From Apricaphanius iberus (taxonomy: Eukaryota > Chordata > Actinopteri > Cyprinodontiformes > Aphaniidae): a stretch of DNA of 64,000 bases. Location: the NCBI GenBank assembly GCA_028564705.1, contig JAPXFQ010002381.1:558001-622000 (forward strand), read 5' to 3'. Made by a program: the position numbers and the translations under genes. The notes under the pieces were generated by a model. The model was not told the origin of the DNA, ran no database searches, and saw only the letters and a list, made by a program, of their open reading frames with translations. Positions 4,952 to 61,010 of this stretch are shown one piece after another; positions within the stretch are counted from its first letter, which is position 1; every line of letters begins with the position of its first letter.

Positions 4952-6560
4952 CAGGTGCTGGCCAGTAAATTAGAATATCATCAAAAAGTTGAATTATTTC
5001 AGTAATTCCATTCAAAACGTGAAACTTGTATACTGTATACTTTCCTTCCACACATAGTGATATATTTCAAGTGTTTATTAATTTTCATTTTTATTATTAC
5101 AACTGACAGCTAATGAAAACACCAAATTCAGTATCTCAGAAAATTAGAATATTCTGAAAAGGCTCAATATAGAAGACACCTGGTGCCACTCTAATCAGCT
5201 GATTAACTCAAAACACCTGCAAAGGCCTTTAAAAGGTCCCTCAGTCTTGTTCTGAAGGCTCCACAATCATGGGGAAGACTTCTGACTTAACAGCTGTCCA
5301 AAAGACGACCATTGACACCTTGTACAAGGAGGGCAAGACACAAAAGGTGATTGCTAAAGAAGCTGGCTGTTCGCAGAGCTCTGTGTCCAAGCACATTAAC
5401 AGACAGGCGAAGGGACGGAAAAAATGTGGTAGAAAAAAGTGTACAAGCTCTAGGGATAACCGCACCCTGCAGAGAATTGTGACGACAAACCCATTCAAAA
5501 ATGTGGGGGAGATCCACAAAGAGTGGACTGCAGCTGGAGTCAGCGCTTCAAGAACCACCACGAAGAGACTCATGAAAGACATGGGATTCAGCTGTCGCAT
5601 TCCGTGTGTCAAGCCACTCTTGAACAAGAAACAGCGTAAGAAGCGTCTCGCCTGGGCCAAGGACAAAAAGGACTGGACTGCTGCTGAGTGGTCCAAAGTT
5701 ATGTTTTCTGATGAAAGCAATTTTTGCATTTCCTTTGGAAATCAAGGACCCAGAGTCTGGAGGAAGAGCGGAGAAGCACAGAATCCACGTTGCATGAGGT
5801 CCAGTGTAAAGTTTCCACCGTCAGTGATGGTGTGGGGTGCCATGTCATCTGCCGGTGTTGGCCCACTCTGTTTCCTGAGGTCCAAGGTCAATGCAGCCGT
5901 CTACCAGGAAGTTTTAGAGCACTTCATGCTTCCTGCTGCTGACCAACTTTATGGGGATGCAGACTTCACTTTTCAACAGGACTTGGCACCTGCACACAGT
6001 GCCAAAACCACCAGTACCTGGTTCAAGGACCATGGTATCCCTGTCCTTGATTGGCCAGCAAACTCGCCTGACCTTAACCCCATAGAAAATCTATGGGGTA
6101 TTGTGAAGCGGAAGATGCAATACGCTAGACCCAACAATGCAGAGGAGCTGAAGACGACTATCAGAGCAACCTGGGCTCTCATAACACCTGAGCAGTGCCA
6201 CAGACTGATCGAGTCCATGCCACGCCGCATTACTGCAGTGATGGAGGCAAAAGGAGCCCCGACTAAGTATTGAGTGCTATACATGCACATTCTTTTCATG
6301 TTCATTCTTTTCAGTTGGCCAACATTTAAAAAAAAACATTTTTTTTCATTGGCCTTTAAAATATTCTAATTTTTTGAGATACCAAATTTGGAGTTTTCAT
6401 TAGTTGTCACTTATAAATATCAAAATTAAAAGAAATAAACATTGGAAATACATTGGTCTGTGTGCATTGCATGAATATAATGTACAAGTTTCACGTTTTG
6501 AGTGGAATTACTGAAATAATTAAACTTTTTGATGATATTCTAATTTACTGGCCAGCACCT
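4952..6560 (+). mobile_element. complete Tc1/mariner element
   Basis: The left end caggtgctggccagtaaatt and the right end aatttactggccagcacct are inverted copies. They extend inward through the tagaatatcatcaaaaagtt region, with further matches (cagtaattcc/ggaattactg). A TA dinucleotide flanks each end, as expected for Tc1 target-site duplication. The right side runs into a (TA)n tract. The element is about 1.6 kb, the family norm, and encloses an unbroken transposase ORF. Confidence 0.9.
5269..6273 (+). CDS. Tc1-like transposase, uninterrupted
   Basis: A 334-residue frame, close to the usual 340 of Tc1 transposases. The N-terminal paired-like DNA-binding region (about residues 1-110) has a helix-turn-helix, KEGKTQKVIAKEAGCSQSSV, then a basic GRKKCGRKKCT linker, then a second helix-turn-helix. 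The catalytic DDE domain follows: D148 in MFSDESNF, D238 in QQDLAPAH and E273 in NSPDLNPIENLW. Exactly 34 residues separate the second Asp and the Glu (DD34E). The C-terminus is the family-typical GAPTKY. It cuts and pastes the surrounding element at TA dinucleotides in the nucleus. The start is the Met at 5269 (MGKTSDL), which fits the conserved family N-terminus. No stop or frameshift is present, unlike the three other Tc1 copies in this window, so it may be young or recently active. The ORF is transposon-borne and not a host gene. Confidence 0.93.
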   Translation: MGKTSDLTAVQKTTIDTLYKEGKTQKVIAKEAGCSQSSVSKHINRQAKGRKKCGRKKCTSSRDNRTLQRIVTTNPFKNVGEIHKEWTAAGVSASRTTTKRLMKDMGFSCRIPCVKPLLNKKQRKKRLAWAKDKKDWTAAEWSKVMFSDESNFCISFGNQGPRVWRKSGEAQNPRCMRSSVKFPPSVMVWGAMSSAGVGPLCFLRSKVNAAVYQEVLEHFMLPAADQLYGDADFTFQQDLAPAHSAKTTSTWFKDHGIPVLDWPANSPDLNPIENLWGIVKRKMQYARPNNAEELKTTIRATWALITPEQCHRLIESMPRRITAVMEAKGAPTKY

Positions 6561-10748: not shown

Positions 10749-11835
10749 GCCCCTGGTAGGGTCACCCATGGCAAACTGGTCCTAGGTGAGGGATCAGACA
10801 AAGTGCAGCACAAAGACCCCTATGATGAATGACAGCGTTGGACCAAGTGTTCCCTCGCCCGGACGCGGGTCACCGGGGCCCCACTCTGGAGCCAGGCCTG
10901 GAGGTGGGGCACGTTGCCGAGCGCCTGGTGGCCGGGCCTTTACCTATGGGGCCCGGCCGGGCTTAGCCTGAAGAGGAAACATGTGCCCCCCTTCCCATGA
11001 GCTCACCACCTGTGGGAGGGGCCATAGGAGTCGGGTGCAATGCAAGATGGGCGGTGGCCGAAGGCGGGGACCTTGGCGGTCCGATCCTCGGCTGCAGAAG
11101 CTGGCTCTTGGGACGTGGAACGTCACCTCTCTGGTGGGGAAGGAGCCGGAGCGGTGTGCGAGGTTGAGAGGTTCCGACTGGACATCGTCGGCCTTGCCTC
11201 GACGCATGGCTCTGGCTCTGGAACCCGTCTCCTCGAGAGGGGTTGGACTCTCTTCAACTCTGGCGTTGCCCACGGTGAGAGGCGCCGTGCTGGGGTGGGC
11301 ATACTAGTTGCCCCCCATCTCGGCGCCTATACGTTGGGATTTACCCCGGTGAATGAGAGGGTAGCCTCCCTCTGCTTACGGGTGTGGGGACGGGTTCTGA
11401 CTATTGTTTGTACTTATGCACCCAACAGTAGCTCAGATTACCCACCCTTCTTGGAGTCCTTGGAGGGGTTGCTGGAGAGTGCTCCTTCTTGGGACTCCCT
11501 CATTCTGCTAGGGGATTTCAACGCTCACGTGGGCAGTGACAGTGAGACCTGGAGAGGCGTGGTTGGGCGGTATGGCCCCCCCCGATCTGAACCCGAGCGG
11601 TGTTTTGTTGTTGGACTTCTGTGTTCGTCATGTATTGTCCATAACGAACACCATGTTCAAGCATAAGGGTGTTCATGTGTGCACTTGGCACCAGGACACC
11701 CTAGGCCGCAGCTCGATGATCGACCTGGTTGTCATTTCATCGGACCTGCGGCCGCATGTTTTGGACACTCGGGTGAAGAGAGGGGCGGAGCTAACCACTG
11801 ACCACTACCTGGTGGTGAGTCGGCTCCGTATTGGG
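10749..11835 (+). pseudogene. LINE 5' part: AP-like endonuclease domain, frameshifted
   Basis: The 5' leader of a common teleost LINE (from gcccctggtagggtcaccca) is followed by its endonuclease domain. The frame opens with [17 protein letters not shown]. It shifts near 11150 to [14 protein letters not shown]…[14 protein letters not shown]…[11 protein letters not shown]…[14 protein letters not shown], then shifts again near 11575 to [13 protein letters not shown]…[23 protein letters not shown] and TDHYLV are the family's catalytic blocks. Two frameshifts make it inactive. The homology stops before the reverse-transcriptase domain. The sequence after 11835 (purine-rich, to about 12090) is unrelated. 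Confidence 0.8.
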
Positions 11836-13779: not shown

Positions 13780-14144
13780 TTGCCACTCGTAATATGGCGG
13801 ACCATTTCACATAGGCAATCGTTTCAGCGGGGCTAGAGAAGCCCTAAACTCCTGTGCCTTATCTTTACCTCTGGTTCTCTGAATCAGAGAGTCGCAGCCG
13901 TGTTTTTACTGGCAGTACAATAACTGGGAGGCATCGCTTACAGCTGGGTGACATCACGCAAACAACGTGGGCGGGTAAAGAATTAACTGCGTCACCTTGT
14001 TGCTAGGATACGCAAATATTTTTTTTCCTTGCCTTTATGACATCAAAGTGGACCTACTTCAATTTTCTTAGAACAATCTCATCTAGTGTGCCATATTTTG
14101 GTGTATTGAGAAATTTTAACTAATGACTAATCTTTTGCTGACAG
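13780..14144 (+). promoter_or_regulatory. putative promoter/5' leader of the giant ORF, with possible 170-bp intron
   Basis: Upstream of the 2304-codon frame lies a less AT-rich patch. It has a CRE-like tgacatcacg (13949-13958), a GC-box-like gtgggcggg (13967-13975) and gttgctaggatac (around 14000), which resembles a ciliary X-box but imperfectly. A consensus donor GTAAAG begins at 13975. A strong acceptor (branch-like ctaatgactaat, then cttttgctgacag) ends at 14144, giving a possible 170-bp leader intron. All of this is inferred from motifs only. Confidence 0.3.
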
Positions 14145-14189
14145 GATTTACCACAAAAAAGAAAAAACAAACAAAAAAAAAACGTTACA

Positions 14190-17100
14190 ATGTTGAGAAG
14201 TAATCCTTTTTTCGCTGGGGAAGACAAATGGGAGGAATCTCGCAGGGCATGCATGGCAGAACAAGAAGAAATCGAGCCACTTACCTTTCAACAGAGACCT
14301 TATCACGAGAAAGAGTTTTTGAAGGAAAAAGCAGAAAAGGAGTATTACAGAAACCAATGCTTTCAATTAAAGGCTGAACTCTTAAAGGTAAATTCAAATG
14401 ATAAGAACTGTATTGAGTATGAAGAAGGCTCTACTGCAATTAAAAATCTACATACAATGATAAATGTGAGTACTTTAAGGACAAAACTGTTTAGAGAGAT
14501 ATTGGCAAAGGAGCATTACAAATATCGATACCTTGAATTCCAGGATGGGCTCTTGAGAGTGCGTTCATCATGGGGAAATTTAAGGAAGCACCTTGAGGGC
14601 AAGACAGCTGAGCTTAAAAATGAGAGTTCATCTGATAATGACAGCAACATTGATTTAAAGAAAGAGATAGATTCATTATCTTTGGTTTTGGATGAACTTT
14701 ATGTTCAAACACAAGTTTTCCAGCAAGAAGACAAACAACCAAAGAGTTTGTCAATACAAAATCGATTGACTCCAGATGTATTTTCTGCTGAGCTTGAGCA
14801 CAATGAGGACAGAAGTGAAACCCCTTCAGATGCTGGATTTGAATATTCTCCTGGGTCTAAGCAAGAAAATATCTCTGCTGGAAAGACTCAGAAACATAAA
14901 GAGACAAAATGCATTGGTGGAGTGACTGCATCCAGGCCCAAGGTCTTTTCTACGAAGGAAAGGCCTGACGCATCTTTGGAGGTTAAAGCACCCAACTGTG
15001 AGTTTGAACAGACAATAGCTTTGGTGAAAATACCTGATAGAGGGCAAAGGATGGAAACTCAAAGATTGGTTGTGCCAGATAAAGAAAAACCGAACGCATT
15101 TGTCCTGCTGCAGAGACATTGTTACCACACGTCGGGATTGTTAAAAGAAACGGCTAAAAAGGAGTATTACAAGAGGCAGTACATTAGATCACAAGCTGAA
15201 CTCTTTAAGCTGTATTCAAAGTGGCAAAATTTCAATGCCAGGTTTGGACACAACATAACTACGTTTGAAAATATGAGTTTAGTTTGCATTAATCTTCAGA
15301 GAGATATATTAAAAGCGAAGTCAGAAAAAGAGCATTACATAATCCAATGCCGTCATTTCCAAGCGAAACTCTTAGAAATGCATTCAATGTGGAAAAACTT
15401 AGAGGCACAGCTTGAAAACAAGATATCTGCGCTTCAACATCTGACTCCATCTGGTATGGACAGTGTAGATTTAGACAGAGAGATTGATGGACTGAATTTA
15501 GTTTTGGATGAACTTCTGGTTCAACTGGAAGATTCTGATCAAAATTGCAACCAGGCTCAAAATGGTTTAAAACCAAATGAAACAATTGCAAAGGGGCCGG
15601 TTTCTGCTGAGTTTGAAGTAACTGAACACAGGCCTTACCAACTTTTGGATTCTGAAGATGAGCAATGCGACATCCCAGAGACACCAAAAACAGAAAAACC
15701 AAAGCAGCTTTCCCTTCAACAAAGAGTTTGTGATCTTGAAGCAGATTTATCTAAAGCAAATGATGAAAAGGAGTATTACAAAAAACTATATGATGAATCA
15801 CAAACCGAGCTTCTGCAGCTGCGTGCCAGGCTGGATAACTTTGTTCAGCAGGCTGAAGAAAAGAAAGTGGTACCTGGATGTGCAAGTTCATCTGGAAATA
15901 ACGGCAATGATTGTGTAAATGAACACATCGTTGCTTTGCGGAAATCTGCAGATGCATTTGAATTTCAAGTTCAAAGGGCTAAACAAGTGGCTGAAATATT
16001 GAAAAAGTTTGCAGAATCAAAAGAAACAGAACGGAAGGACACATTCTCTTCAGAGATTGACAACAATGAGCAGAGAAATAAGGTTTTAGATGCTGAACAG
16101 GAGGCCCAAAATGTGACTAACCTACACGACTCTAGTGAAATTATGGACATCGCTGCTTCTGCATCTTTACCAGAGGAGACCTCTGCACCTAAAAGACTTA
16201 GGGACACCCACAGCACTTTCATGGGCTTTAAATTTGAGGAAATTGTTTTACCAGAATCAGAAAAATCTGGCACATCTTTGGATTTTAAAGCTTCTGAATG
16301 TGAGCAAGAACAGATATCTGCTTTGGAGAGTGAACTACTCGAGCCTAGACATGATAAAGAACAAAACATGAAATCTCAAAGTTTGTGTGCATCAGAAACT
16401 GAAAAACCCACGTTGTTTTCCCTTCAACAGAGAGTTCATGATCTTGAAGCAGAGTTATCTGAAGGAAATGAGGAGAAGGACTATTACAAAAAGCTATACA
16501 ATGAATCACAAGCTGAGCTCTTGGCAGTGCGAGCAATACAGAATAATTTCATTCAAAAGTCTGAAGAAAAGAAAGTGGCACCAAGTTCATCTGGAAATGA
16601 TGGCAATGATTATGTAGATGAAAACATCAAAGCTGTGTGGAAACCTGCAGATGAGATTAAATTTCAATCTGAGGAGGTCTCTGATGTTCTAAAGAAACAG
16701 GATCTTACTGTGTCTAGTGCTGCAGAGTCTGAACAAAAGGACTTTGCTTCTGCTACAACTTCGGAACATAACGACGCACAATGCATTTTCATTCATACTA
16801 AATCTGAGGAGCTGGTTTTGTCCAAGGTGGAGGAATTTAGTACATCTTTGGATATTACAGCTCCAGAATGTGACCATGAACAGATTTCGGCTTTGAACGT
16901 TGACGTCAATGAGCAAAGACATGATACTCAACTAACTAAAGAATCTCAAGGTTTAGGTATTCCAGATGAGGTTCTAATTAAGCCACAATTAGACAAAAAG
17001 AGAGTTTGTGATCTTGAGGCAGATTTATCTAAAGAAAAAGATGAAAAGGAGTATTACAAAAAACTATATGATGAATCACAAACCGAGCTTCTGCAGCTGC

Positions 17101-20100
17101 GTGCCAGGCTGGATAACTTTGTTCAGCAGGCTGAAGAAAAGAAAGTGGTACCTGGATGTGCAAGTTCATCTGGAAATAACGGCAATGATTATGTAAATGA
17201 ACACATCGTTGCTTTGCGGAAATCTGCAGATGCATTTGAATTTCAAGTTCAAAGGGCTAAACAAGTGGCTGAAATATTGAAAAAGTTTGCAGAATCGAAA
17301 GAAACAGAACGGAAGGACACATTTTCTTCAGAGATTGACAACAATGAGCAGAGAAATAAGGTTTTAGATGCTGAACAGGAGGCCCGAAATGTAACTAACC
17401 TACATGACTCTAGTGACATTATGGACATCGCTGCTTCTGCATCTTTACCAGAGGAGACCTCTGCACCTAAAGGACTTAGGGACACCCACAGCACTTTCAT
17501 GGGCTTTAAATCTGAGGAGGTTGTTCCGCCAGAATCAGAAAAATCTGACACATCTTTGGATTTTAAAACTTCTGAATGTGAGCAAGAACAGATATCTGCT
17601 TTGGAGAGTGAACTACTCGAGCCTAGACATGATATAGAACAAAACATGAAATCTCAAAGTTTGTGTGCATCAGAAACTGAAAAACCCACGTTGTTTTCCC
17701 TTCAACACAGAGTTCATGATCTTGAAGCAGAGTTATCTGAAGGAAATGAGGAGAAGGACTATTACAAAAAGCTATACAATGAATCACAAGCTGAGCTCTT
17801 GGCAGTGCGAGCAATACAGAATAATTTCATTCAAAAGTCTGAAGAAAAGAAAGTGGCACCAAGTTCATCTGGAAATGATGGCAATGATTATGTAGATGAA
17901 AACATCAAAGCTGTGTGGAAACCTGCAGATGAGATTAAATTTCAATCTGAGGAGGTCTCTGATGTTCTAAAGAAACAGGATCTTACTGTGTCTAGTGCTG
18001 CAGAGTCTGAACAAAAGGACTTTGCTTCTGCTACAACTTCGGAACATAACGACGCACAATGCATTTTCATTCATACTAAATCTGAGGAGCTGGTTTTGTC
18101 CAAGGTGGAGGAATTTAGTACATCTTTGGATATTACAGCTCCAGAATGTGACCATGAACAGATTTCGGCTTTGAACGTTGACGTCAATGAGCAAAGACAT
18201 GATACTCAACTAACTAAAGAATCTCAAGGTTTAGGTATTCCAGATGAGGTTCTAATTAAGCCACAATTAGACAAAAAGAGAGTTTGTGATCTTGAGGCAG
18301 ATTTATCTAAAGAAAAAGATGAAAAGGAGTATTACAAAAAACTGTATGATGAATCACAAACTGAGCTTCTGCAGCTGCGTGCCAGGCTGGATAACTTTGT
18401 TCAGCAGGCTGAAGAAAAGAAAGTGGTACCTGGATGTGCAAGTTCATCTGGAAATAACGGCAATGATTATGTAAATGAACACATCGTTGCTTTGCGGAAA
18501 TCTGCAGATGCATTTGAATTTCAAGTTCAAAGGGCTAAACAAGTGGCTGAAATATTGAAAAAGTTTGCAGAATCGAAAGAAACAGAACGGAAGGACACAT
18601 TTTCTTCAGAGATTGACAACAATGAGCAGAGAAATAAGGTTTTAGATGCTGAACAGGAGGCCCAAAATGTAACTAACCTACATGACTCTAGTGAAATTAT
18701 GGACATCGCTGCTTCTGCATCTTTACCAGAGGAGACCTCTGCACCTAAAAGACTTAGGGACACCCACAGCACTTTCATGGACTTTAAATTTGAGGAAATT
18801 GTTTTGCCAGAATCAATAAAATCTGGCACATCTTTGGATTTTAAAGCTTCTGAATGTGAGCAAGAACAGATATCTGCTTTGAAGAGTGAACTACTCGAGC
18901 CTAGACATGATAAAGAACAAAACATGAAATCTCAAAGTTTGTGTGCATCAGAAACGGAAAAACCCACGTTGTTTTCCCTTCAACACAGAGTTCATGATCT
19001 TGAAGCAGAGTTATCTGAAGGAAATGAGGAGAAGGACTATTACAAAAAGCTATACAATGAATCACAAGCTGAGCTCTTGGCATTGCGAGCAATACAGAAT
19101 AATTTCATTCAAAAGTCTGAAGAAAAGAAAGTGGCACCAAGTTCATCTGGAAATAACGGCAATGATTGTGTAAATGAACACATCGTAGCTTTGCGGAAAT
19201 CTGCAGATGCATTTGAATTTCAAGTTCAAAGGGCTAAACAAGCGGCTGAAATATTGAAAAAGTTTGCAGAATCAAAAGAAACAGAACGGAAGGACACATT
19301 TTCTTCAGAGATTGACAACAATGAGCAGAGAAATAAGGTTTTAGATGCTGAACAGGAGGCCCAAAATGTGACTAACCTACATGACTCTAGTGACATTATG
19401 GACATCACTGCTTCTGCATCTTTACCAGAGGAGACCTCTGCACCTAAAAGACTTAGGGACACCCACAGCACTTTCATGGACTTTAAATCTGAGGAGGTTG
19501 TTTTGCCAGAATCAGAAAAATCTGGCACATCTTTGAATTTTAAAGCTTCTGAATGTGAGCAAGAACAAAAAATGACGTCTCAAATTGTGTTTACGACAGA
19601 AGCAGAAATCAGCACGCTGATTTCGCTTCAACAGAGAGTTTACGATCTTGAGACAGAGCTGGCTGAAGAAAAGAACCAAAAGGACTATTACAATAAACTT
19701 TACAACGCATCACAAGCTGAGCTCTTAGAATTGCTTGCAGTACAAGAGAACATACATAAGACATCTAAAGACATGACAGCTGTACCTGAAAGTGAAAGTA
19801 CATCTAGAAATGATGACAATGATCATGTAAATGAAAACCTCAAAAGTGCACCTAAATCTGCAGATGCACTTGAATTTCCAGTGCAAATTGCTGAACACTT
19901 ATCTGAAAAACTCAAGAAATTAACAGAACCAAAAGAATCAAACCCAAAGGAGACACATTTTGACGAGTTTGACAATGAGAAAACAGTTCATTCATTTTTG
20001 GAGGCGGAACATGACAACCATCATACACCTAACATAATGAACCCTATACAAATCATTGCTCCTGAAACTGTACAAGAGGACACCTCCGTTTCACCTAAGG

Positions 20101-21104
20101 AATTTGGAATTACAGACTGCATTGTCATGGATATTAAATCAGAGGAGTTTATTACTGAGGAAGAGAAATATAGTACATCTTTGGATGGTAAGGCTGTAGA
20201 ATATGGCCAAGAACAGATTCCTACTTCAGACATGAATACAGAGGGAAGAAATAAATCTCAAAGTTTATCTGTGCCAGATAAACCAATCACCAAATCGTCA
20301 TCTGATCTAATTGCATCCCCAAAATATTTGGAAACAAGTACAGAATTTAGAAAAGAAATGACTGCTGTTGTTGATGTTGAAATGCATGAGCAAAGAAAGG
20401 ACATTAAGCCTGATAAAAGGGAGCTGAAGGGAGATAGTTCCTCCCTGTATTTTCTGTCTTCAGGGCCTGAAAAAGGAGAAACCTCCAACACTGAGCCCGA
20501 TCAACAACGGCAGTTATGTACTTCTATCCAGGATACTACGAAGGAACACCGAAACAGAACTCTGCGAAAGAAAGACCTTGGATTTAGTGTTACATATGGA
20601 GAGCTTGAGCAGGAGGAGGTATTTTCTCCTTTCAGGAAGCAACATGTACAAAACAATGGCACATTTTCTGAAACAGATTCTCAGGAAGCTGTTCCTCAAT
20701 TGGTAAGTGACAATGCTGCTGTGGAAACAGTGATCCCAGAACAAGAGAGTGCCACCACAGAGACAGAGAATTGTGAGGTAAGATGTCCTCTAATCTTGGA
20801 TGCACAATCTGAGAAATTGATTGCACCTGAGCAGCCAACAGATACCCCTCTGACAGATAGTTCTTTGGAAGAATTAACAGTACATGCTGAAACTCATCCA
20901 GAGGCAGCTGGTTTAGGTGGTCAAAAGAGATCACGTTTACGACGTTGTTGTAAATTCCTGACTACTCTGGGCTTGACACTTGGCTTCTCCCTTTTGGGTT
21001 CATTTATGTTTAGTATTGCCTTCAACCATGATGTGAACAACACTCTATACCCACTACTAGAACCCCTCTGCTCCTTTGAAGAGGCATTACCCCTCCCCTT
21101 CTAA
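14190..21104 (+). CDS. unrecognised giant repetitive, tail-anchored coiled-coil protein
   Basis: One exon encodes 2304 residues without a stop. An in-frame TGA at 14139 bounds the frame upstream, and the Met at 14190 is the first after it. The protein is very rich in Glu, Lys, Ser and Gln. The motif EKxYYKKLYxESQxELL recurs about eleven times. Diverged forms lie near residues 49, 106, 323 and 379. Near-identical forms lie at 526, 762, 952, 1188, 1378 and 1614, and another diverged form near 1830. Segments around each motif look helical and probably form coiled coils. The N-terminal 510 residues contain two older duplicates sharing LxxEIDxLxLVLDELxVQ. The C-terminus has a basic patch with two cysteines (KRSRLRRCCK, 2246-2255), one hydrophobic segment (2256-2278) and a 26-residue tail with an NNT sequon. 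This predicts a tail-anchored protein with a huge cytosolic part, as in golgins or KASH proteins. I cannot name it, and no function is asserted. Its coding status rests on length and on in-frame repeat preservation. Confidence 0.8.
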   Translation: MLRSNPFFAGEDKWEESRRACMAEQEEIEPLTFQQRPYHEKEFLKEKAEKEYYRNQCFQLKAELLKVNSNDKNCIEYEEGSTAIKNLHTMINVSTLRTKLFREILAKEHYKYRYLEFQDGLLRVRSSWGNLRKHLEGKTAELKNESSSDNDSNIDLKKEIDSLSLVLDELYVQTQVFQQEDKQPKSLSIQNRLTPDVFSAELEHNEDRSETPSDAGFEYSPGSKQENISAGKTQKHKETKCIGGVTASRPKVFSTKERPDASLEVKAPNCEFEQTIALVKIPDRGQRMETQRLVVPDKEKPNAFVLLQRHCYHTSGLLKETAKKEYYKRQYIRSQAELFKLYSKWQNFNARFGHNITTFENMSLVCINLQRDILKAKSEKEHYIIQCRHFQAKLLEMHSMWKNLEAQLENKISALQHLTPSGMDSVDLDREIDGLNLVLDELLVQLEDSDQNCNQAQNGLKPNETIAKGPVSAEFEVTEHRPYQLLDSEDEQCDIPETPKTEKPKQLSLQQRVCDLEADLSKANDEKEYYKKLYDESQTELLQLRARLDNFVQQAEEKKVVPGCASSSGNNGNDCVNEHIVALRKSADAFEFQVQRAKQVAEILKKFAESKETERKDTFSSEIDNNEQRNKVLDAEQEAQNVTNLHDSSEIMDIAASASLPEETSAPKRLRDTHSTFMGFKFEEIVLPESEKSGTSLDFKASECEQEQISALESELLEPRHDKEQNMKSQSLCASETEKPTLFSLQQRVHDLEAELSEGNEEKDYYKKLYNESQAELLAVRAIQNNFIQKSEEKKVAPSSSGNDGNDYVDENIKAVWKPADEIKFQSEEVSDVLKKQDLTVSSAAESEQKDFASATTSEHNDAQCIFIHTKSEELVLSKVEEFSTSLDITAPECDHEQISALNVDVNEQRHDTQLTKESQGLGIPDEVLIKPQLDKKRVCDLEADLSKEKDEKEYYKKLYDESQTELLQLRARLDNFVQQAEEKKVVPGCASSSGNNGNDYVNEHIVALRKSADAFEFQVQRAKQVAEILKKFAESKETERKDTFSSEIDNNEQRNKVLDAEQEARNVTNLHDSSDIMDIAASASLPEETSAPKGLRDTHSTFMGFKSEEVVPPESEKSDTSLDFKTSECEQEQISALESELLEPRHDIEQNMKSQSLCASETEKPTLFSLQHRVHDLEAELSEGNEEKDYYKKLYNESQAELLAVRAIQNNFIQKSEEKKVAPSSSGNDGNDYVDENIKAVWKPADEIKFQSEEVSDVLKKQDLTVSSAAESEQKDFASATTSEHNDAQCIFIHTKSEELVLSKVEEFSTSLDITAPECDHEQISALNVDVNEQRHDTQLTKESQGLGIPDEVLIKPQLDKKRVCDLEADLSKEKDEKEYYKKLYDESQTELLQLRARLDNFVQQAEEKKVVPGCASSSGNNGNDYVNEHIVALRKSADAFEFQVQRAKQVAEILKKFAESKETERKDTFSSEIDNNEQRNKVLDAEQEAQNVTNLHDSSEIMDIAASASLPEETSAPKRLRDTHSTFMDFKFEEIVLPESIKSGTSLDFKASECEQEQISALKSELLEPRHDKEQNMKSQSLCASETEKPTLFSLQHRVHDLEAELSEGNEEKDYYKKLYNESQAELLALRAIQNNFIQKSEEKKVAPSSSGNNGNDCVNEHIVALRKSADAFEFQVQRAKQAAEILKKFAESKETERKDTFSSEIDNNEQRNKVLDAEQEAQNVTNLHDSSDIMDITASASLPEETSAPKRLRDTHSTFMDFKSEEVVLPESEKSGTSLNFKASECEQEQKMTSQIVFTTEAEISTLISLQQRVYDLETELAEEKNQKDYYNKLYNASQAELLELLAVQENIHKTSKDMTAVPESESTSRNDDNDHVNENLKSAPKSADALEFPVQIAEHLSEKLKKLTEPKESNPKETHFDEFDNEKTVHSFLEAEHDNHHTPNIMNPIQIIAPETVQEDTSVSPKEFGITDCIVMDIKSEEFITEEEKYSTSLDGKAVEYGQEQIPTSDMNTEGRNKSQSLSVPDKPITKSSSDLIASPKYLETSTEFRKEMTAVVDVEMHEQRKDIKPDKRELKGDSSSLYFLSSGPEKGETSNTEPDQQRQLCTSIQDTTKEHRNRTLRKKDLGFSVTYGELEQEEVFSPFRKQHVQNNGTFSETDSQEAVPQLVSDNAAVETVIPEQESATTETENCEVRCPLILDAQSEKLIAPEQPTDTPLTDSSLEELTVHAETHPEAAGLGGQKRSRLRRCCKFLTTLGLTLGFSLLGSFMFSIAFNHDVNNTLYPLLEPLCSFEEALPLPF
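15723..19634 (+). repeat. tandem 1278-bp coding repeats (A-B units) within the giant ORF
   Basis: Unit starts are marked by agagtttgtgatcttga at 15723, 17001 and 18279, exactly 1278 bp (426 codons) apart. Each unit is an A module (708 bp, 236 codons) plus a B module (570 bp, 190 codons) whose starts are at 16431, 17709 and 18987. A and B share the same head motif and so are themselves ancient duplicates. B1 and B2 look essentially identical at nucleotide level. The third B module switches to A-type sequence partway and is 648 bp long. A diverged module begins at 19635. Confidence 0.93.
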
Positions 21105-21776
21105 TTTAGCCTAAGAGCTCGCACATTCATTTTAATTTGCTGAAATTTTTGTTCCGCAAAAAAACAGTTTTTATCTACAGAACAGTTATCACAGAAACTT
21201 GTCACTTTATACTTTATCACTACATGGCTAAAGGCTTTGCTCACTATTTTTATTTCTCAACTTAAAAAAAATAAATCAAAAATTGTTTTTTTCCTGATAA
21301 AAAAATCAAATAATAAAAATAAATAAATCAAATAATAATAATTATAATTATATTTTTTAAATAGTGTGTATAACAGCTAAAATATTAAATTAATGCGTTT
21401 TCTCCAGGTGCCCTGGTTTTTCGCTCCCAAAAAATTATTAGGTAAAATTATTTGCCTTGGGCAAAACCCTTTTTTTGTAAATAGTTCACTTTTGGGTGAG
21501 AGTACAGTTTTAAGCAGTGGGTGACTAGTTTCAAACCTTAGACTTACTGCATATACTGTATATACCCCAAATAAACCAAAAGAAAATTTCCCTGCTTTTC
21601 ATCAACAGTTAAAAAATATTTACTAATAAATTATTCGTATCACTGTTTTCAAATCCTATTGCCTTAAAACAGTTTTATTTGGGAAGTGAACATTTTGGCA
21701 TTGTTCTTGTTTGTTCAGGAATCACCTTTTTAAACAACCTTAATGAACAAATGACAAAAGTACAAAAGATCTCCGG

Positions 21777-22794: not shown

Positions 22795-23866
22795 TATGCT
22801 GCACCCTCAGCAGGGTCCAGGAGGGTGCATGGGAGTGGACTTGGAGAAGGCATTCGACCGTGTCCCTCAGGGAGTCTTGCGGAGGGTACTTCTGTATGAC
22901 AGGTGTCAGAGTTTGGTTCGCATTGCCGGCAGTAAGTCTGATTCATTTCAAGTAAGAGTTGGACTCGCCAAGGTTGCCATTTGTCACCGATCCTGTTCAT
23001 TTATGGACAGGAATTCTAGGCACAGTCAAGGTGTTGAGGGGATCCGTTTTGGTGGCCACAGGATTGGGTCTCTGCTTTTTCGCAGTTGATGTGGTCCTGC
23101 TGGATTCATCAGAACGTGATCTACAGGTTTCACTGGAGCGGTTCGCAGCAGAGTGTGAAGCGGCTGGGATGAGGATCAGTACCTCCATATCTGAGACCAT
23201 GGTCTTGAGCCGGAAAAGGGTAGGATGCTTTCTTTGGGTCCAGGAGGGGGTCCTTCCTCAAGTGGAGAAGTTCAAGTATTTTGTTCACGAATGAGGGAAA
23301 AATGGAGCGGGAGATCAATAGATGGATTGGTAAGGCAAATGCAGTTATGTGGGTGCTGTACCGGTCTGTCGTGGTGAACAGAGAGCTGAGCCGATAGGCA
23401 AAGCTCTCGATTTACCGGTCGATCTACGTTCCTACCCTCATCTATGGTCATGAACTCTGGGTGGTGACTGAAAGAACGAGATCACGGATACAGGCGGCTA
23501 AAATGAGTTTCCTCCACAGGGTGGCTGGACTCTCCCTCAGAGAGAGAAGCTCGGTCATCCGGAAGGGGCTCAGAGTAGAGCCGCTGCTCCTCCCCTTTGA
23601 GAGGAGCCAGTTGAGGTGGCTCAGGCATCTGGTCAGGATGCCTCCTGGACGCCTCCCTGGTGAGGTGTTCTGGGCACGTCCCACCAGGAGCAGGCCCAGA
23701 GGAAGACCCAGGACTCGCTGGAGGGACTATGTTTCCCGGCTTGCCTGGAAGCACCTTGGGATTCCTCCAGAGGAGCTGGCCCAAGCGGCTGGGACTTGTA
23801 TCTCTGCTTAAGCTACTGCCCCCGCGACCCCGGATAAGTGGAAGAAGGATGGATGGATGTACTTAG
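22795..23866 (+). pseudogene. LINE 3' part: reverse-transcriptase core to 3' end, degraded
   Basis: The sequence begins at the motif-A block VDLEKAFDRVPQGVLRRVLL and continues CQSLVRIAGSKSDSFQVRVG. It runs through a damaged active site, where the expected Y/FADD is read as FAVD in FFAVDVVLLDSS, and through RFAAECEAAGMRISTS. Further on are LWVVTERTRSRIQAAKMSFL and the Arg-rich C-terminal region LPGEVFWARPTRSRPRGRPR. It ends at a ggatggatgg tail, typical of these LINE 3' ends. Several frameshifts and stops separate the frames starting at 22796, 22959 and 23461. It appears to belong to the same teleost LINE family as the endonuclease fragment at 10.7-11.8 kb. Confidence 0.82.
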
Positions 23867-24369
23867 AAAGCTGGGATGTAAGTAGATATGGTGCGCTGTA
23901 TGAATGTTGGTATGAATATGAAGTATTGTTACGTGTTTTACATTGTAATTCTGTTGTCTGCATTGTTGTTTGTTTTAAGGACCCCCCCCAAAACGAGATG
24001 GTACATCTCAAGGATGTATCCTTTAAATAAATTTCAAATTTCCTCCAAGAGCGCTGGTCTCAAGCTGGATGTTTCAAGTGTGGTTTACATTTTTTAGGCT
24101 CCTGTGCCACATTTTCAGTTTCCTTAAACAACATATTAATTCCTCCTTTAACTCTAAAGTAAAAGTCTTTCTATTACTTTCAAGTCAAAAGTAAAAGTCT
24201 TTCAGCTCCAACAACGGGGCCAATGATCTTTTAGACTTTTTCCAGGATGAGAATTAGTGAATGAGTTGACTGATGGAATTGTGACTGTGTGTTATATTAC
24301 AGTAGCATTCACTTTAATTTCTCTTTTCACCTCTGGATCATCAGATGGGATGGTGGAGTCGTCAAAGTC
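23867..24369. other. intergenic, no gene recognised
   Basis: AT-rich sequence including an imperfect direct repeat of aagtaaaagtcttt near 24158-24202. No coding signal. Confidence 0.4.
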
Positions 24370-25568
24370 GACTTTTGGCCATTAGGTAGGAGGCAACCGC
24401 TAAAAATCTGGTCCGTTTAGCCATTTTTCATTTTCCTAACTCCGGAGCTCTTACTCCTCGAGAAGCTTCATCCACAGGATTGTCTTTGAGGCTTACATAT
24501 CTCCACTAATCTTTATCTGTGGATTCTCTTATGGTGCTGACATGGTTGGCAACATATGTGTGAAAGCGCTTTGTTTCATTAAAGTTGTACTTGAGAACAG
24601 TAGTGCTGTCAGTCCAAAAAACGGATTTTTGCAACGGCAACTGTAGCTCCTTTAACAGCATTATGTCCACTCGAACAGCAAGCACACCTGCAGCAAGGGC
24701 AAGATGTGAAATATTAATTCGCTTCAGAGGAGCAACACGAGCCTTGCCTGTGAAACTTGAAACATGCATACTGTCAGTGCTCTCCAATCTCAAGTATGAA
24801 AAAGTTCTGCTTTTACTTGTGCTCCAAAGTTCTTTGGTTTGGATGCACTGCTCCAATCTAAATCCACTCAGGCGCTGGAGTTCAGAGAGCCACTCAGAGC
24901 AATGTTTGGAGAAGGCACTGGGGACTGGCTCATCCCATTTAAAGTTCATTTTGCACAGCTCCTGTAACAGTAACTTGGCAGGGATAATGAAAGGAGATGA
25001 CAGCCCAGTGGATCATAGAAGGAGCTTACCACAGAAAGGATGCCCCTTTTTGGGTATGGACGTTCCTGCACTGCAGTCCTGAAGCTGAACTTAACTTCTT
25101 GAACTCACCATTGCATCCCCAGGGCTCTTTCCATGAGGAGCTGGTCCCTGTCCAAATCCATGTCCTTCAATCCGCCAGCTGGGATTCCAACATTTTGGGT
25201 TATTTGTGACCCACTTTTGGAGATGAAAGCCACCTTTTTTACAGAGAGATGTTCGTCCATTTATGAGCTTCACTGCATCTTCCTCTGTTGTACTGGACAT
25301 AAGACAGTCATCCACATGGAAATTAGTTTTTACTGTACTGAGGACATCAGATATGCATTATCCTGAGCTGTTATTCTCAGTGCATAGTCTGAGCGGCTTG
25401 GGAGGGTACAGCTCCAAAGAAATGCACACACATGCTGTATTCCTCTGGCTCCTTCGTAATATCTCCATTGGGCCACCATAGAAAGTGCAGAAGGTTGACG
25501 TGTTTGTGTGAGACCCAGGCTTGATGGAACATGCACTGCAAAACTGTCCATCTAACCAAATCCAGCAA
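24370..25568 (-). pseudogene. BEL/Pao LTR-retrotransposon pol remnant
   Basis: On the minus strand three blocks appear in order. FHQAWVSHKHVNLLHFLWW with EPEEYSMCVHFFGAV lies at about 25545-25400. The reverse-transcriptase catalytic block VDDCLMSSTTEEDAVKLI, with LCKKGGFHLQKWV, lies at about 25320-25220. An RNase H-like segment follows, SVFWTDSTTVLKY with KRFHTYVANHVSTIRE, at about 24640-24520. This order and these motifs are those of BEL/Pao elements. The blocks are in different frames with stops between, no LTRs were identified, and gag, protease and integrase are absent. It is a dead fragment. Confidence 0.75.
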
Positions 25569-26225: not shown

Positions 26226-27810
26226 AAGTGGGGCAAAAAAGTATTTAGTCAGCCACCGATTGTGCAAGTTCTCCCACTTAAAATAATGATAGAGGTCAGT
26301 AATTTTCATCATAGGTACACTTCAACTGTGAGAGACAGAATTTGAAAAGAAAAATCCAGGAATTCACATTTTAGGATTTTTAAAGAATTTATTTGAAAAT
26401 TATGGTGGAAAATAAGTATTTGGTCACTTCAAACAAGGAAGATCTCTGGCTCTCACAGACCTCTAACTTCTTCTTTAAGAAGCTCTTCTGTCCTCCACTC
26501 GTTACCTGTATTAATGGCACCTGTTTGAACTCGTTATCTATATAAAAAGACACCTGTCCACAGCCTCAAATAGTCAGACTCCAAACTCCACTATGTCCAA
26601 GACCAAAGAGCTTTCCAAGGACACCAGGAAAAGAATTGTAGACCTTCACCTGACTGGGAAGAGTGAATCTACAAAAGGCAAGCAGTTTGGTGTGAAAAAA
26701 TCAACTGTAGGAGCAATTATCAGAAAATCGAAGACATACAAGACCACTGATAATCTCCCTCGATCTGGGGCTCCACGCAAGATCTCATCCCGTGGGGTCA
26801 AAATGATCATGAGAACGGTGAGCAAAAATCCCAAAACCACACGGGGGGACCTGGTGAATGACCTGCAGAGAGCTGGGACCAAAGCAACAAAGGTTACCAT
26901 CAGTAACACACTACAACAACAGGGAATCAAATCCTGCAGTGCCAGACGTGTTCCCCTGCTTAAGCCAGTGCATGTCCAGGCCCATCTGAAGTTTGCCAGA
27001 GAGCACATGGATGATACAGAAGAGGATTGGGAGAATGCCGTGTGGTCAGATGAAACCAAAGTAGAACTTTTGGGTATAAACTCAACTCGTCGTGTTTGGA
27101 GGAAGAAGAATACTGAGTTGCATCCCAAGAACACCATACCTACTGTGCTGCTGTTTTTCTGCTAAAGGGACAGGACGACTGATCCGTGTTAAGGAAAGAA
27201 TGAATGGGGCCATGTATCGTGAGATTTTGAGCCAAAACCTCCTTCCATCAGTGAGAGCTTTGAAGATGAAACGTGGCTGGGTCTTCCAAGATGACAATGA
27301 TCCCAAACACACCGCCCGGGCAACGAAGGAGTGGCTCCATAAGAAGCATTTGAAAGTCCTGGAGTAGCCTAGCCAGTCTCCAGACCTCATACCCCAAACC
27401 CCATAGAAAATCTGTGGAGGGAGTTGAAAGTCCGTGTTTCTCGGCGACAGCCCCAAAACATCACTGCTCTCGAGAAGATCTGCATGGAGGAATGGGCCAA
27501 AATACCAGCTACTTGGTGTGCAAACCTGGTAAAGACCTATAGTAATCGTTTGACCTCTGTTATTGCCAACAAAGGTTATATTACAAAGTATTGAGTTGAA
27601 TTTTTGTTATTGACCAAATACTTATTTTCCACCATAATTTACAAATAAATTCTTTAAAAATCCTACAATGTGAATTCCTGGATTTTTTTTTCACATTTTG
27701 TCTCTCACAGTTGAAGTGTACCAATGATAAAAATTACTAACCTCTGTCATCATTTTAAGTGGGATAACTTGCAAAATCGGTGGCTGACTAAATACTTTTT
27801 TGCCCCACTG
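26226..27810 (+). mobile_element. Tc1/mariner element, second lineage
   Basis: The left end agtggggcaaaaaagtattt and the right end aatacttttttgccccact are inverted copies of roughly 100-200 bp in total, including a matching acttcaactgtgagagacag block. A TA follows the right end at 27811. The left TA has mutated to TG. Size about 1.59 kb. The TIR sequence differs completely from that of the element at 5 kb. Confidence 0.88.
26593..27594 (+). pseudogene. Tc1 transposase, frameshifted
   Basis: The Met at 26593 ([20 protein letters not shown]) begins an intact N-terminal half with both helix-turn-helix regions and the first catalytic block [12 protein letters not shown]. Near 27140 about 30 bp of the conserved glycine-rich segment are missing, and the frame is lost. 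The C-terminal half resumes in another frame ([20 protein letters not shown], with the second Asp in DDNDPKH). It meets a TAG at 27365-27367 where a Trp is usual, and shifts again before ENLWRELK. The family ending (GYITKY-type) is still legible before TGA at 27592. Inactive. Confidence 0.85.
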
Positions 27811-29590: not shown

Positions 29591-44513
<14,923 letters not shown>

Positions 44514-48680: not shown

Positions 48681-48704
48681 TATTTTGAACAAAGAGGGTA
48701 AGTT

Positions 48705-50453
48705 TTGCTTTTGGGTGGGGTGGGGAAGAATTTTTTTTTGGAAAAATGGGGGTTGATCGAACCTGTTGAGATTGCCCTTGGCGTACGCTATGACGCAAGA
48801 AGATATAGAACTTCTTTTACATATGACCAGGTTCCAGTAACAGATAAATTTGTTTACGTTCCCATATTAGAGACTTTGAAATTCATTTTTTCAAACAAAG
48901 AGATACTTAGCCATTTTGTTCAGCCTTCAGATCAACCTTCTGTGTACAAATATTTCTGTGATGGTAGTTATTTTCAATCTCATCCTCTCTTCTACAACAA
49001 CAAAAATGCTATCCAAATTCAGATTTTTTTTTGATGAGTTTGAAACTGCAAATCCACTTGGGTCAAAGAAAGGAATTCATAAAATTGGAAGTATCAATGC
49101 AATGTTCGAGCCTTTGGTACACGATCTCAAAATCCTTGAGTCCTCAGGAATCAGTGTCCCGTTTTCCAAAAGTCCAGTTTGTGGTACAGTGGCATAAGTC
49201 ACTGGGGACAATTTAGGTTTGCATACACTGCTAGGTTATGTTGAATCTTTCAGTGCTAACTATTTTTGCCGTTTCTGTGTGGCTAACAAAGATACGTGTC
49301 AAAACATTTTCACTGATGATGACCCAGACTTAACACTGCGCAACAAAGAACTCCATGTTCAGCATTGCTATGATATACAGGACCCTGCAGTGCCATCATC
49401 ATTTGGGGTAAATCGAATGTGCTTGCTCAATGATCTGCTGTATTTTAACGTCTCTGAAAACTACGCTGTTGACATTATGCATGACATATTGGAGGGTGTA
49501 GGGCAGTTGGAGTTAAAGTTACCTTCAGGGTACCTCTCAGACAACAAAATCATTTCCAAAAATGAGGCATCTGAAAGAATGTACTCTTGCAACTATGGAT
49601 TTCTTGAACGAAAAAATTGTCCCAACAAAATAAACCTGGACCAAAAAAGCAATTCAATAGGTCTTGATGCCATTCATACATTTTGTTTGATAAGAAATGT
49701 TCCACTAATATTTGGAGATATACTGCCAGAAGGCAATGCATACTGGAGACTGTTGCTGCTCCTTCTTCAAGTGATCAATATTGTGTTTTCACCTGTCGTT
49801 ACAGAAGGCATGACCATTTGTCTGAAGCATCTCATTATTGATCATCATCATCAGCTATTCAAAGAGCTGTATCCACAACAGAATCTGATACCCAAACACC
49901 ACTTCATGATCCATTATCCCAGAACCTTATGAAAAATCGGCCCAATTCTTCACCTCTGGTCAACCAGATTTGAGGCAAAGCATAGATTTTTTTAAAACAC
50001 TGTAAAAAATTTCAAAAAAATTACAAAGACTTTAGCTAAAAAACATGAGGTGGCTATAGCATATCACTGGGAGTCATTACCTTTGAAAGGCATGGATTCT
50101 GGGCCTGTAAAATAAGTTAAAGTATGTGAGTTAAAACATGGGGATTTGGTAGTAGATAACCTGAAGGCTGACATGAACTCTGAGGTTGACGTGGTGTCTT
50201 GGGATGTGTGTTATGGAACAGAGTATCACCCTGGTCTCCTTGTGTGTTCAAAGATTGAAGGTGGAATGCCAGTTTTTAGTAAAATAAGTGAAATTATTGT
50301 TTTTGCTGGGAAACATTTTTTTGCAGTCGAACACTTTGAGACACTGGGATTTGCTGAACATTTTCTCTCCTACCATGTGGAAAAGGTAAATGAGTTTGAT
50401 ACTTCTCTTTTGAGGGTTGATAAGTTGCGTTTTTTCCAACCATTTGACCTTTA
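48705..50453 (+). pseudogene. transposon-derived coding region, decayed
   Basis: A long stretch of linked frames encodes one protein. It starts LIEPVEIALGVRYDARRYRT…SYFQSHPLFY, shifts frame at a T-run near 49030 to FDEFETANPLGSKKGIHKIG, then runs in an open 237-codon segment (49219-49932). That segment contains SANYFCRFCVANKDTC, YAVDIMHDILEGVGQLELKL, YWRLLLLLLQVINIVFSPVV and LIPKHHFMIHYPRTL. After a stop it continues FEAKHRFF…ITKTLAKKHEVAIAYHWES to a final 102-codon frame ending at 50453. The CxxC pair and MHDxLEGV block are typical of a large multi-copy family of transposase-related ORFs in fish, perhaps CMC/EnSpm-like; I am not sure of the superfamily. At least one frameshift, several stops and an internal deletion near 49100 make this copy non-functional. 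Confidence 0.6.
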
Positions 50454-52599
50454 GACCTTTGGTTTGAGAGTAATGATTTGTATGTGGTTCTTGTGCATGC
50501 GCTATCATAGCGGGCAGTGAAAAGGTTTGTTTCTTCAGGATACTAGTTTGGTACAAACTTGAATTGAGCTGATTTTTGTGTTGTAGTGAGAATTGCAAAA
50601 TACTGTTAATAAGTAAATGTTTGATAAAAGTGATTTTACTTTTGCACTTTTTCATTTTCAATTCACTTTTTTTGTGTTTAGGGTTCCTTGTTTACTTTTC
50701 ATATTCATTGTGCAGCACGTTCTAAATCTTTTCACACTGGCTTAAAGGATGTGTATATATATATATATAATATAAATATATATCAATGTCTTTCCTATGT
50801 TTCTTAAGCCAATCTGTACACTTGGAACGTTTTGTCTGCATGTTGTAATGTTTCAAAACTTATTGTGTTGCTGGTTTGAAATAAATGATTGAAATTTCTA
50901 TGGTTGGTTGCTCATTGATGTGTAATAATTTTTTTTAAATGAGAGCAATGTAACTAATGGTATCTTAGAGTACATATGAAGAGGATGTAAAATGTCAAAG
51001 GTCAACTCTTGAATTCTGTAGGATTTACTGTGTTTTGGTAATGAATATATTACCTTTTCAGGGGTTCATTGGACTCCATAAGGTCAATATTAGACACTGT
51101 CAGAGTTTATATACATTATTTTGGTGTAGGCTGTCTGTATTGTAAGTGTTAAAACGACCCAATTTAAAAAGATAACACCATGATAGTATAACATTTTAGA
51201 CACTTTGAGAGTATGGTGGTGGGGGGTGCAGGAGGCGGGTTTATAGAGAAACCAGCTGTTTTATTAAGTGGTCCAACATTAACTACAGGATACATAAGTT
51301 TAATGAATGGACAAATTAATACTGTATAACACCAATGGTAACATTTTAGCATATATATGTCTATCCCAGAAGATGAAAGCTGTAAAATAGCATGATTTAG
51401 TCCCTTTAATGGGAATGAAGTTTTGGCACATTAATTTCATTACAAAAAAATAAAAACAGCCTGTCCCAATAAATCTCTGAGTAGAAGCAAATAATATAAA
51501 TTAAATGCAAAAATAAGACAAATGATGGCTGGTGTTTTTACATTTTAATCAGGACCACAGTTTAAGAAGCACAACTTACATGTATTAAAGCAAACAAAAA
51601 GAATTGTCAATGCTTTTTTAAAACGTGTATGATGCTCTTCTTTTTGGTTGTTTATGTAAAGATTGTGAAAGAAAAATTAAACACGTGTCTGTTTTCAGTC
51701 AAACTGTAAACATCCTTAGCGTTATCTAGCCTTGTATGCTTGCTTCGTAATTACTTGACAGATTCTTCATTTCTACTGTTAGCTTCTGCTGTTTAAGACA
51801 GTTCATCCTGTAAAGCCCTTCGAAAAAGATTTGTGTGATTTGGCTTTGAAAAACCAGATGATTACACCCTTTCACTTGATAAGAAATTTCAAGGTTATGG
51901 ACTTTGTTGCTGGTTGTCCTTGTATTGCTGCAGTGTTGTACTTTCCAGTTGTACTTTCCAGTAACAAAGGGAGAAAAAACACAATCTAACAACTGAAATC
52001 TTCTGATTATCTTAGTTACCTGTTTAAATGTGAATTTTACATTTGTTTGCTTGTATTGTGCTTTTTAATTCCTCGCATGTTCTTAAATCCAGAGCAGATA
52101 GTCCACAAACAGCAGCCAATGGCAAAGGTTCTGTTTATTTCAGCGAGCCTGTCTGTTGACTCAGAAGGGCCTCTTCAGATGAAGCAACATCCCATCAATG
52201 ATTAAACTATCCTGTTTTAGGGGAAGATTAAGAATTCAATTTGAAAAAGGAATTTAATTTCAGGCTTATTTCTTACTGAATTATATAAAAAAAAAACAAT
52301 AAAAAGATATGTGTAAGCCCTGACTGTTCCAAAAAAACCAAAAGAACAAAAAATAAATCTGCCACTGAATGTCACTGTGCGTGATGAAATGATTTGGATC
52401 AGTTCAAGGACAAATGACACCCAGTCAGCTTCAGAGATTTTCCATTACAAGATGAAATTCTTAGAAAATCTATAAAAAAAACCTTGAAACCCCCCCCACA
52501 GAAATGAAAAAAAGTTTGTCATTTGTTTTTGTTTTTTGTAAAAATATGTTGGTTGGTGTATCCATTCACCTTTCTAATGATCACAGCAGTAGTTTGAGT
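50454..52599. other. intergenic, nothing recognised
   Basis: AT-rich DNA with a short (TA)n tract near 50753-50785 and many T-runs. The minus-strand frames here are short and featureless. Confidence 0.4.

Positions 52600-55017: not shown

Positions 55018-61010
<5,993 letters not shown>

Follow-up and report, generated by a model that had tools for sequence, protein, structure and literature searches.

What defines tail-anchored proteins is a single hydrophobic segment no more than about 30 residues from the C-terminus, with no other in the protein. The golgins are long, near-continuous coiled coils, and giantin and golgin-84 carry a C-terminal anchor. KASH proteins end in a domain of about 30 residues for which a PPPX end is typical, according to PMC5371868. 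Divergent forms have been described, since PMC10827754 reports that KASH6 differs from Nesprin-1-3 and from KASH4/5, and Jaw1/LRMP, which has a C-terminal KASH region, is placed at the ER and the outer nuclear membrane in PMC7804115. With respect to targeting, PMC5214336 states that tail-anchored proteins with basic residues after the anchor are rejected from the ER and sent to mitochondria.

The window analysed here is a stretch of 64,000 nucleotides from Apricaphanius iberus (contig JAPXFQ010002381.1), and it contains a real, constrained and poorly described fish gene of a recognisable tail-anchored helical-repeat kind, not a new kind of system. Compared with the tail-anchored golgins, the predicted product is alike only in how it would work, with a large cytosolic region and a C-terminal anchor. 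In the same limited sense, and by analogy with nesprins, KASH5 and JAW1/LRMP, it may work like a KASH protein, having a cytosolic helical region, a C-terminal anchor and a short tail. For the ER proteins IRAG1/IRAG2 (MRVI1/LRMP), the comparison extends no further than the C-terminal anchor.

The frame occupies 14190..21104 on the plus strand, with an ATG at 14190 and a TAA at 21102-21104, and encodes 2304 amino acids with zero internal stops, exactly the unbroken frame of 2304 codons described in the initial annotation; the A. toweri homologue introduced below aligns to it. Each of the remaining five frames across 14190-21104 contains 81-291 stops. From base composition alone, the chance of a run this long is about 10^-73, a figure that is too extreme because of the repeats. 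The protein is rich in Glu (12.9%), and Ser, Leu and Lys are also abundant.

The same reading frame is open already from 14142, and a pyrimidine-rich, splice-acceptor-like sequence ending in CTGACAG was located at 14120..14144 (+) by direct reading and in the pattern listing. The bases up to 14144, taatgactaatcttttgctgacag, resemble a branch point with a pyrimidine run and an acceptor, with tcttttgctgacag meeting GATT at 14144/14145; therefore, a 5' exon, either non-coding or coding, is possible, and an exon with a 5' leader may begin at 14145. Further upstream, GGTAAAG resembles a splice donor whose GT is at 13975. The earlier description of the gene as single-exon thus holds for one large coding exon but is otherwise unproven, and "single large coding exon" should be the better wording. 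At the 3' side, the first AATAAA after the stop in the pattern listing is at 21270..21275 (+), which is not specific because nine AATAAA, along with one ATTAAA, occur in the same A+T-rich 1.1 kb.

Upstream of the ATG, an X-box-like site at 13999 was considered as a sign of a ciliary or testis promoter and set aside, since sites matching the RFX X-box consensus used for the scan are not above chance (13 in the window versus 10.3 expected, with 13 reached in 26 of 100 shuffles). CRE-like TGACATCA sites are present at 13949 and 14038, both no more than 245 bp upstream of the ATG. The window has 12 matches to TGACRTCA versus 5.4 expected, and 12 was reached in 2 of 100 shuffles, in a count that scores palindromes twice and includes two places inside the repeat array; for these reasons the sites were not used as promoter evidence. 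A bacterial promoter scan of 13800-14200, which is unsuited to fish, found none.

Using a loose pattern, 11 copies of an (E/A/K)K(E/D)(Y/H)Y-like motif were identified, at residues 49, 107, 323, 379, 526, 761, 952, 1187, 1378, 1613 and 1831. The initial annotation had counted about eleven, and only the last seven fit the form EK(E/D)YYKKLY(D/N)ESQ(T/A)ELL closely, the four N-terminal copies having diverged. The layout consists of two N-terminal pairs (49/107 and 323/379) followed by seven copies spaced along the rest. The pairs lie in two helical blocks defined by the homologue, a low-confidence model and the heptad signal: N1 (residues 39-179; 14304..14726, +) and N2 (residues 297-459; 15078..15566, +). 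The N1 and N2 regions share homology with each other (36.6% over 194 columns) and, at a greater distance, with the later units. The latter, all on the plus strand, were delimited by unit alignment, and A1, B1, A2, A3 and BA4 also by repeat spacing: A1 (15645..16352), B1 (16353..16922) and A3 (18201..18908); A2 (16923..17630), a near copy of A1 save for the first ~25 codons; B2 (17631..18200), with 2 differences from B1 across 190 codons; BA4 (18909..19556), a recombinant hybrid whose head is B-type and whose tail is A-type; and the diverged unit C (19557..20237).

Offset comparison revealed that 15718..19203 (+) is made up of about 2.7 copies of a 1278-bp module (A+B), nearly identical to one another. 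From 15718 to 17925, 2156 of 2208 positions (97.6%) have an equal base 1278 bp downstream, and 31 of 37 blocks of 60 nt reach at least 0.97, the lowest being 0.80, at the edge. The copies are spaced 708, 570 or 648 bp apart, all whole codons. The internal repeats were analysed through unit alignments and unit-versus-unit comparisons; run against itself in BLASTP, the full-length protein gave no off-diagonal rows. Judging from the alignment, the mixed head and tail of BA4 is a mark of unequal exchange, and together with the near-identical modules it suggests that in-frame copy-number change has been recent; such change may be continuing today. Because the modules are 97.6% alike, the length of the protein probably varies. 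The module copy number may have been affected by assembly error.

Suggested initially as a check, protein searching returned one fish relative. When a repeat-collapsed query was compared with 5.8 billion proteins, with 7986 candidates scored, the sole match at E<=1 was the hypothetical protein ATANTOWER_012378 (E = 5.5e-200), a partial gene prediction of 808 amino acids from Ataeniobius toweri (Goodeidae). The goodeid genome paper PMC11286751 is presumably the source of this record. Against residues 10-496, 267 of 502 positions are identical (53%), and the same protein aligns again to the repeat region. Identity is 80/141 (57%) in the N1 block, 94/162 (58%) in N2, 53/117 (45%) in the first linker and 22/37 in the second, while two further A. 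toweri units show 44-67% identity to units in the window. The two proteins are hence alike in the order of the N-terminal ~490 residues, in the four N-terminal motif copies and the linkers, and in at least two further units, so that homology extends in order over N1, N2 and repeat units within the partial record. They differ in that the known part of the A. toweri protein is without near-identical 1278-bp modules, and its record ends inside a motif, short of the membrane segment. The gene had been called unrecognised; a partial hypothetical protein is in fact annotated in A. toweri, though the record carries neither a function nor a family. The suggestion that the gene is possibly fast evolving fits the 53% identity to the goodeid protein.

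Other queries were less productive. The whole protein gave no match at E<=0.001 among the 7971 candidates with most shared words, a result that is no evidence of absence; coil words probably swamped this search. With the last 515 residues as the query, none of the 7996 scored candidates, which could only be proteins of ~283-901 amino acids, matched at E<=1. Viral contigs searched with one A+B module produced 4 pattern matches, and bacterial and archaeal contigs searched with the N-terminal 485 amino acids produced 6, with no relative in either set. In the literature, no text was found with any of three protein strings taken from the repeat or from the N-terminus of the homologue, and no paper naming slc17a8, nr1h4 and synteny together; further papers judged by title and start of abstract were not on point.

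To the homologue can be added evidence of coding constraint from the repeats themselves. The seven units A1, B1, A2, B2, A3, BA4 and C were aligned, and Nei-Gojobori dN/dS values were 0.32-0.66 in 19 of the 21 pairs. In the other two, B1-B2 has 2 nonsynonymous and no synonymous change and A2-A3 gives 0.95. The distances between A1 and A2 are inflated because A1 shares no homology with A2 and A3 over its first ~25 codons. In six of the 21 pairs, the same changes were placed at random in 1000 runs and those with an equal or lower pN/pS were counted: none for A1-B1, 16 for A1-C, 76 for B1-C, 34 for A1-A2, 10 for A3-BA4 and 650 for A2-A3. A frame control on seven pairs was mixed. The true frame is lowest for A1-B1, A1-A2 and A1-BA4; for A1-C, B1-C and BA4-C it gives 0.57, 0.60 and 0.61 versus 0.58, 0.54 and 0.54 in the +1 frame, and is therefore either not separable from +1 or higher; for A2-A3 it gives 0.95 versus 0.33 and 0.67 in the others. 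The older repeats are thus under moderate coding constraint, most clearly in the A-versus-B pairs, and the youngest have too few changes for constraint to be judged.

Two independent lines, the constraint among the repeats and the homologue, argue that 14190..21104 is a real protein-coding gene, as had been supposed. An intact frame devoid of present function, whether a recently amplified array or a decaying gene that is open by chance, is very unlikely. The lack of constraint between the youngest copies, A2 and A3, and the transposon remains in the neighbourhood would agree with such an origin; against it are the constraint on the older units and the N-terminus, the spacing of the copies in whole codons with zero stops, and the same N-terminal architecture in A. 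toweri.

The architecture predicted from the models comprises about nine units that each combine a helical stretch with an acidic, probably disordered linker; the later units have a head with the motif helix, then a further helix, then an acidic tail. An AlphaFold model of a single unit, built from a seven-row alignment of the A. toweri protein and all but one of the seven window units, is poor, with a mean pLDDT of 51.3 and values of at least 70 at only 38 of 236 residues. It places helices at 21-37, 41-74, 86-127 and 140-161 and none at 162-236, and its motif-helix blocks at 41-70 reach a pLDDT of 75-83. The model of the N-terminal 517 residues (two rows; mean pLDDT 38.5) is also poor, and has helices with breaks between 39-179 and 297-459 and none at 180-296. 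By these two poor models, the helical stretches are at most ~160 residues long and themselves broken, and the acidic linkers measure ~75 to 120 residues. Heptad-like periodicity at p<=0.02 was detected in 15 of 188 windows of 49 residues, versus ~4 expected, all 15 overlapping motif helices. N1/N2 account for ten of them, with a single window in each of B1, A2, B2, BA4 and C; A1 and A3 have none, though A3 is almost identical to A2. An 18-residue linker motif near TSLDxxAxECExEQISAL is found in eight of the nine units and is absent from N2. Against a consensus typed from these same units it is identical at 11-17 of 18 positions, where 200 shuffles of the protein reach at most 9; in A. toweri, the corresponding places give 10 and 8 identities and one other place 9.

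Since the periodic windows are separate and the linkers free of helix in the two models, the term "giant coiled coil" used in the initial annotation is too strong; helical stretches alternate with acidic linkers. This bears on the proposal that the product is a golgin-type Golgi tether, with a tail anchor of the giantin or golgin-84 type. The long cytosolic repeat region and the C-terminal anchor would suit that role, and Golgi sorting after insertion into the ER is possible, but the helices are interrupted by acidic linkers and heptad windows occur only in separate helical stretches, whereas golgins are near-continuous coiled coils; furthermore, no golgin family is among the Pfam matches. We regard a golgin-kind tether as distinctly doubtful.

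At the C-terminal end, the basic patch, single membrane segment and short tail noted initially were all found. Sequence reading located a juxtamembrane patch, RSRLRRCCKF, at residues 2247-2256 (20928..20957, +), of whose 10 residues 5 are basic. It precedes an uncharged hydrophobic stretch of 23 residues, 2257-2279 (20958..21026, +), which holds the Kyte-Doolittle maximum of the protein: the best 19-residue mean is 1.79 at 2260, in contrast to 0.85 for the best window starting before 2200. The remaining 25 residues, HDVNNTLYPLLEPLCSFEEALPLPF (21027..21101, +), read as a tail without Lys or Arg. The sequence therefore has one C-terminal hydrophobic segment and no other strong one, which supports the tail-anchored topology proposed earlier. 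A soluble or otherwise non-tail-anchored scaffold, for example a sperm or cytoskeletal protein in which the hydrophobic stretch does not act as an anchor in vivo or is spliced out, would suit the acidic, helical or disordered character of most of the protein; an uncharged 23-residue stretch after a basic patch is, however, what is seen in membrane anchors, and we consider such a scaffold unlikely.

For a protein with the predicted tail-anchored topology, the ER or the nuclear envelope is favoured over mitochondria because the tail is without Lys and Arg, following the rule given in PMC5214336. The RRCCK sequence beside the membrane could be palmitoylated.

The single membrane segment before a short tail is also the layout of KASH proteins, in which case the tail would lie on the luminal side. 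The product might be a non-canonical KASH-like protein of the outer nuclear membrane, with the tail binding SUN in the perinuclear space and the repeats reaching a cytoskeletal partner. Order and size would be right for this, with a helical region, one membrane segment and a short tail to compare with the ~30-residue domain of PMC5371868, and divergent domains such as KASH6 (PMC10827754) do exist. The LYPLL stretch and the proline-containing end recall the nesprin tail. The protein nonetheless ends in LPLPF, so that PLPF stands in the place of the PPPX that is typical according to PMC5371868. The last 114 residues match no Pfam family at E<=10 and no KASH profile, in a search whose HMMER filters drop most weak matches, and the tail matches no KASH chain among solved structures at E<=10, a weak search with a very short query. 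The product differs from KASH proteins also in having no spectrin repeats or another family domain among its Pfam matches, and we rate this alternative as rather improbable.

Pfam searches of the whole protein gave 14 families at E<=10, of which only DUF7739 (PF24881) exceeds its cut-off (33.9 bits versus 27), in three stretches, the best covering positions 36-71 of 98. This family is unlisted for one A+B module (E<=10) and for the homologue (E<=1), and membership was rejected, since the cut-off is passed only by the sum over near-identical copies. The other families at E<=10 were rejected as all below their cut-offs. None was above cut-off for four separate segments or for the A. toweri homologue. 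Pfam contains an MRVI1 model, and the IRAG/LRMP (MRVI1) profile is absent at E<=10 from the whole protein and the four segments. Sequence and profile searches of solved structures found no relative, the lowest E being 0.077 for a designed repeat protein. The earlier statement that the protein has no family-specific domain is borne out, as no Pfam match, KASH included, survives inspection, and none points to a binding partner.

The neighbours named in the initial annotation are in place: for an exon at 30844 the best match is the brain transporter vesicular glutamate transporter 3 (slc17a8), and for one near 60.9 kb it is the bile acid receptor (nr1h4); 60608-60940 as a query had no match. The human SCYL2-SLC17A8-NR1H4 interval is not known to contain such a gene. 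A transposon or viral origin of the frame was rejected, as blastn and tblastn gave no match to the rest of the window while a positive control matched, and no transposon family is among the Pfam matches.

Several mobile-element remains were seen elsewhere in the window. A LINE-like endonuclease piece lies upstream of the gene at 11028-11666 (+; Exo_endo_phos, E 7e-4, below cut-off); downstream, ~22800-23870 (+), in the same orientation, looks by eye like the reverse-transcriptase end of a LINE and has no Pfam match at E<=0.01 in the two frames scanned. A Tc1/mariner-type transposase with an uninterrupted frame of 334 amino acids and matches to DDE_3 and a Tc3-type HTH is at 5269-6273 (+), and a second frame of this type, at 26515-27165 (+), has only Tc3-type and Sleeping-Beauty-type HTH matches. 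A Pao-type retrotransposon fragment is at 24506-25012 (-; Peptidase_A17, E 1.8e-19). At 48702-50454 (+), several clustered frames resemble, by eye, fragments of a disrupted mobile-element protein, with no Pfam match for 48702-49031 or 49198-49929. A tetranucleotide TGTA array of ~45 copies is present at 59882-60064, upstream of the nr1h4 exon.

Taking up the observed frame, units, near-identical modules, coding constraint, homologue and single C-terminal hydrophobic segment, the explanation we favour, with confidence a little below even, is that this fish gene is functional and that its product, a membrane protein anchored by its tail, works as a multivalent and flexible tether. Its C-terminal segment would enter the ER membrane post-translationally, and since that membrane is continuous with the outer nuclear membrane, both would be possible sites. 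The other 2250 residues would remain cytosolic, with N1, N2 and the seven further units, each a helical stretch with an acidic linker, arranged as beads on a string. The helical stretches would be expected to oligomerise or to bind a partner repeatedly and the linkers to supply reach; the recurrence of one helical stretch and one linker motif points to weak contacts made repeatedly, and so to a multivalent tether or scaffold. Gain or loss of the 1278-bp module through unequal exchange would alter both reach and the number of binding sites.

A more specific version, a fish-specific, length-variable tether of the nuclear envelope or ER with a non-canonical SUN-binding tail, its reach and valency tuned by within-exon recombination, is decidedly speculative and, in our judgement, quite unlikely; if true, tether reach and valency would differ between individuals or species.

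This is a vertebrate gene of large size and under constraint; neither a family nor a domain or function was found for it, and only a partial relative is on record. Its interest lies in this annotation gap and in the candidate length-variable tether. If the tether reading is true, the in-frame array of near-identical modules of 426 residues would be a natural case of unequal exchange changing the length of a tether together with the number of its binding sites.
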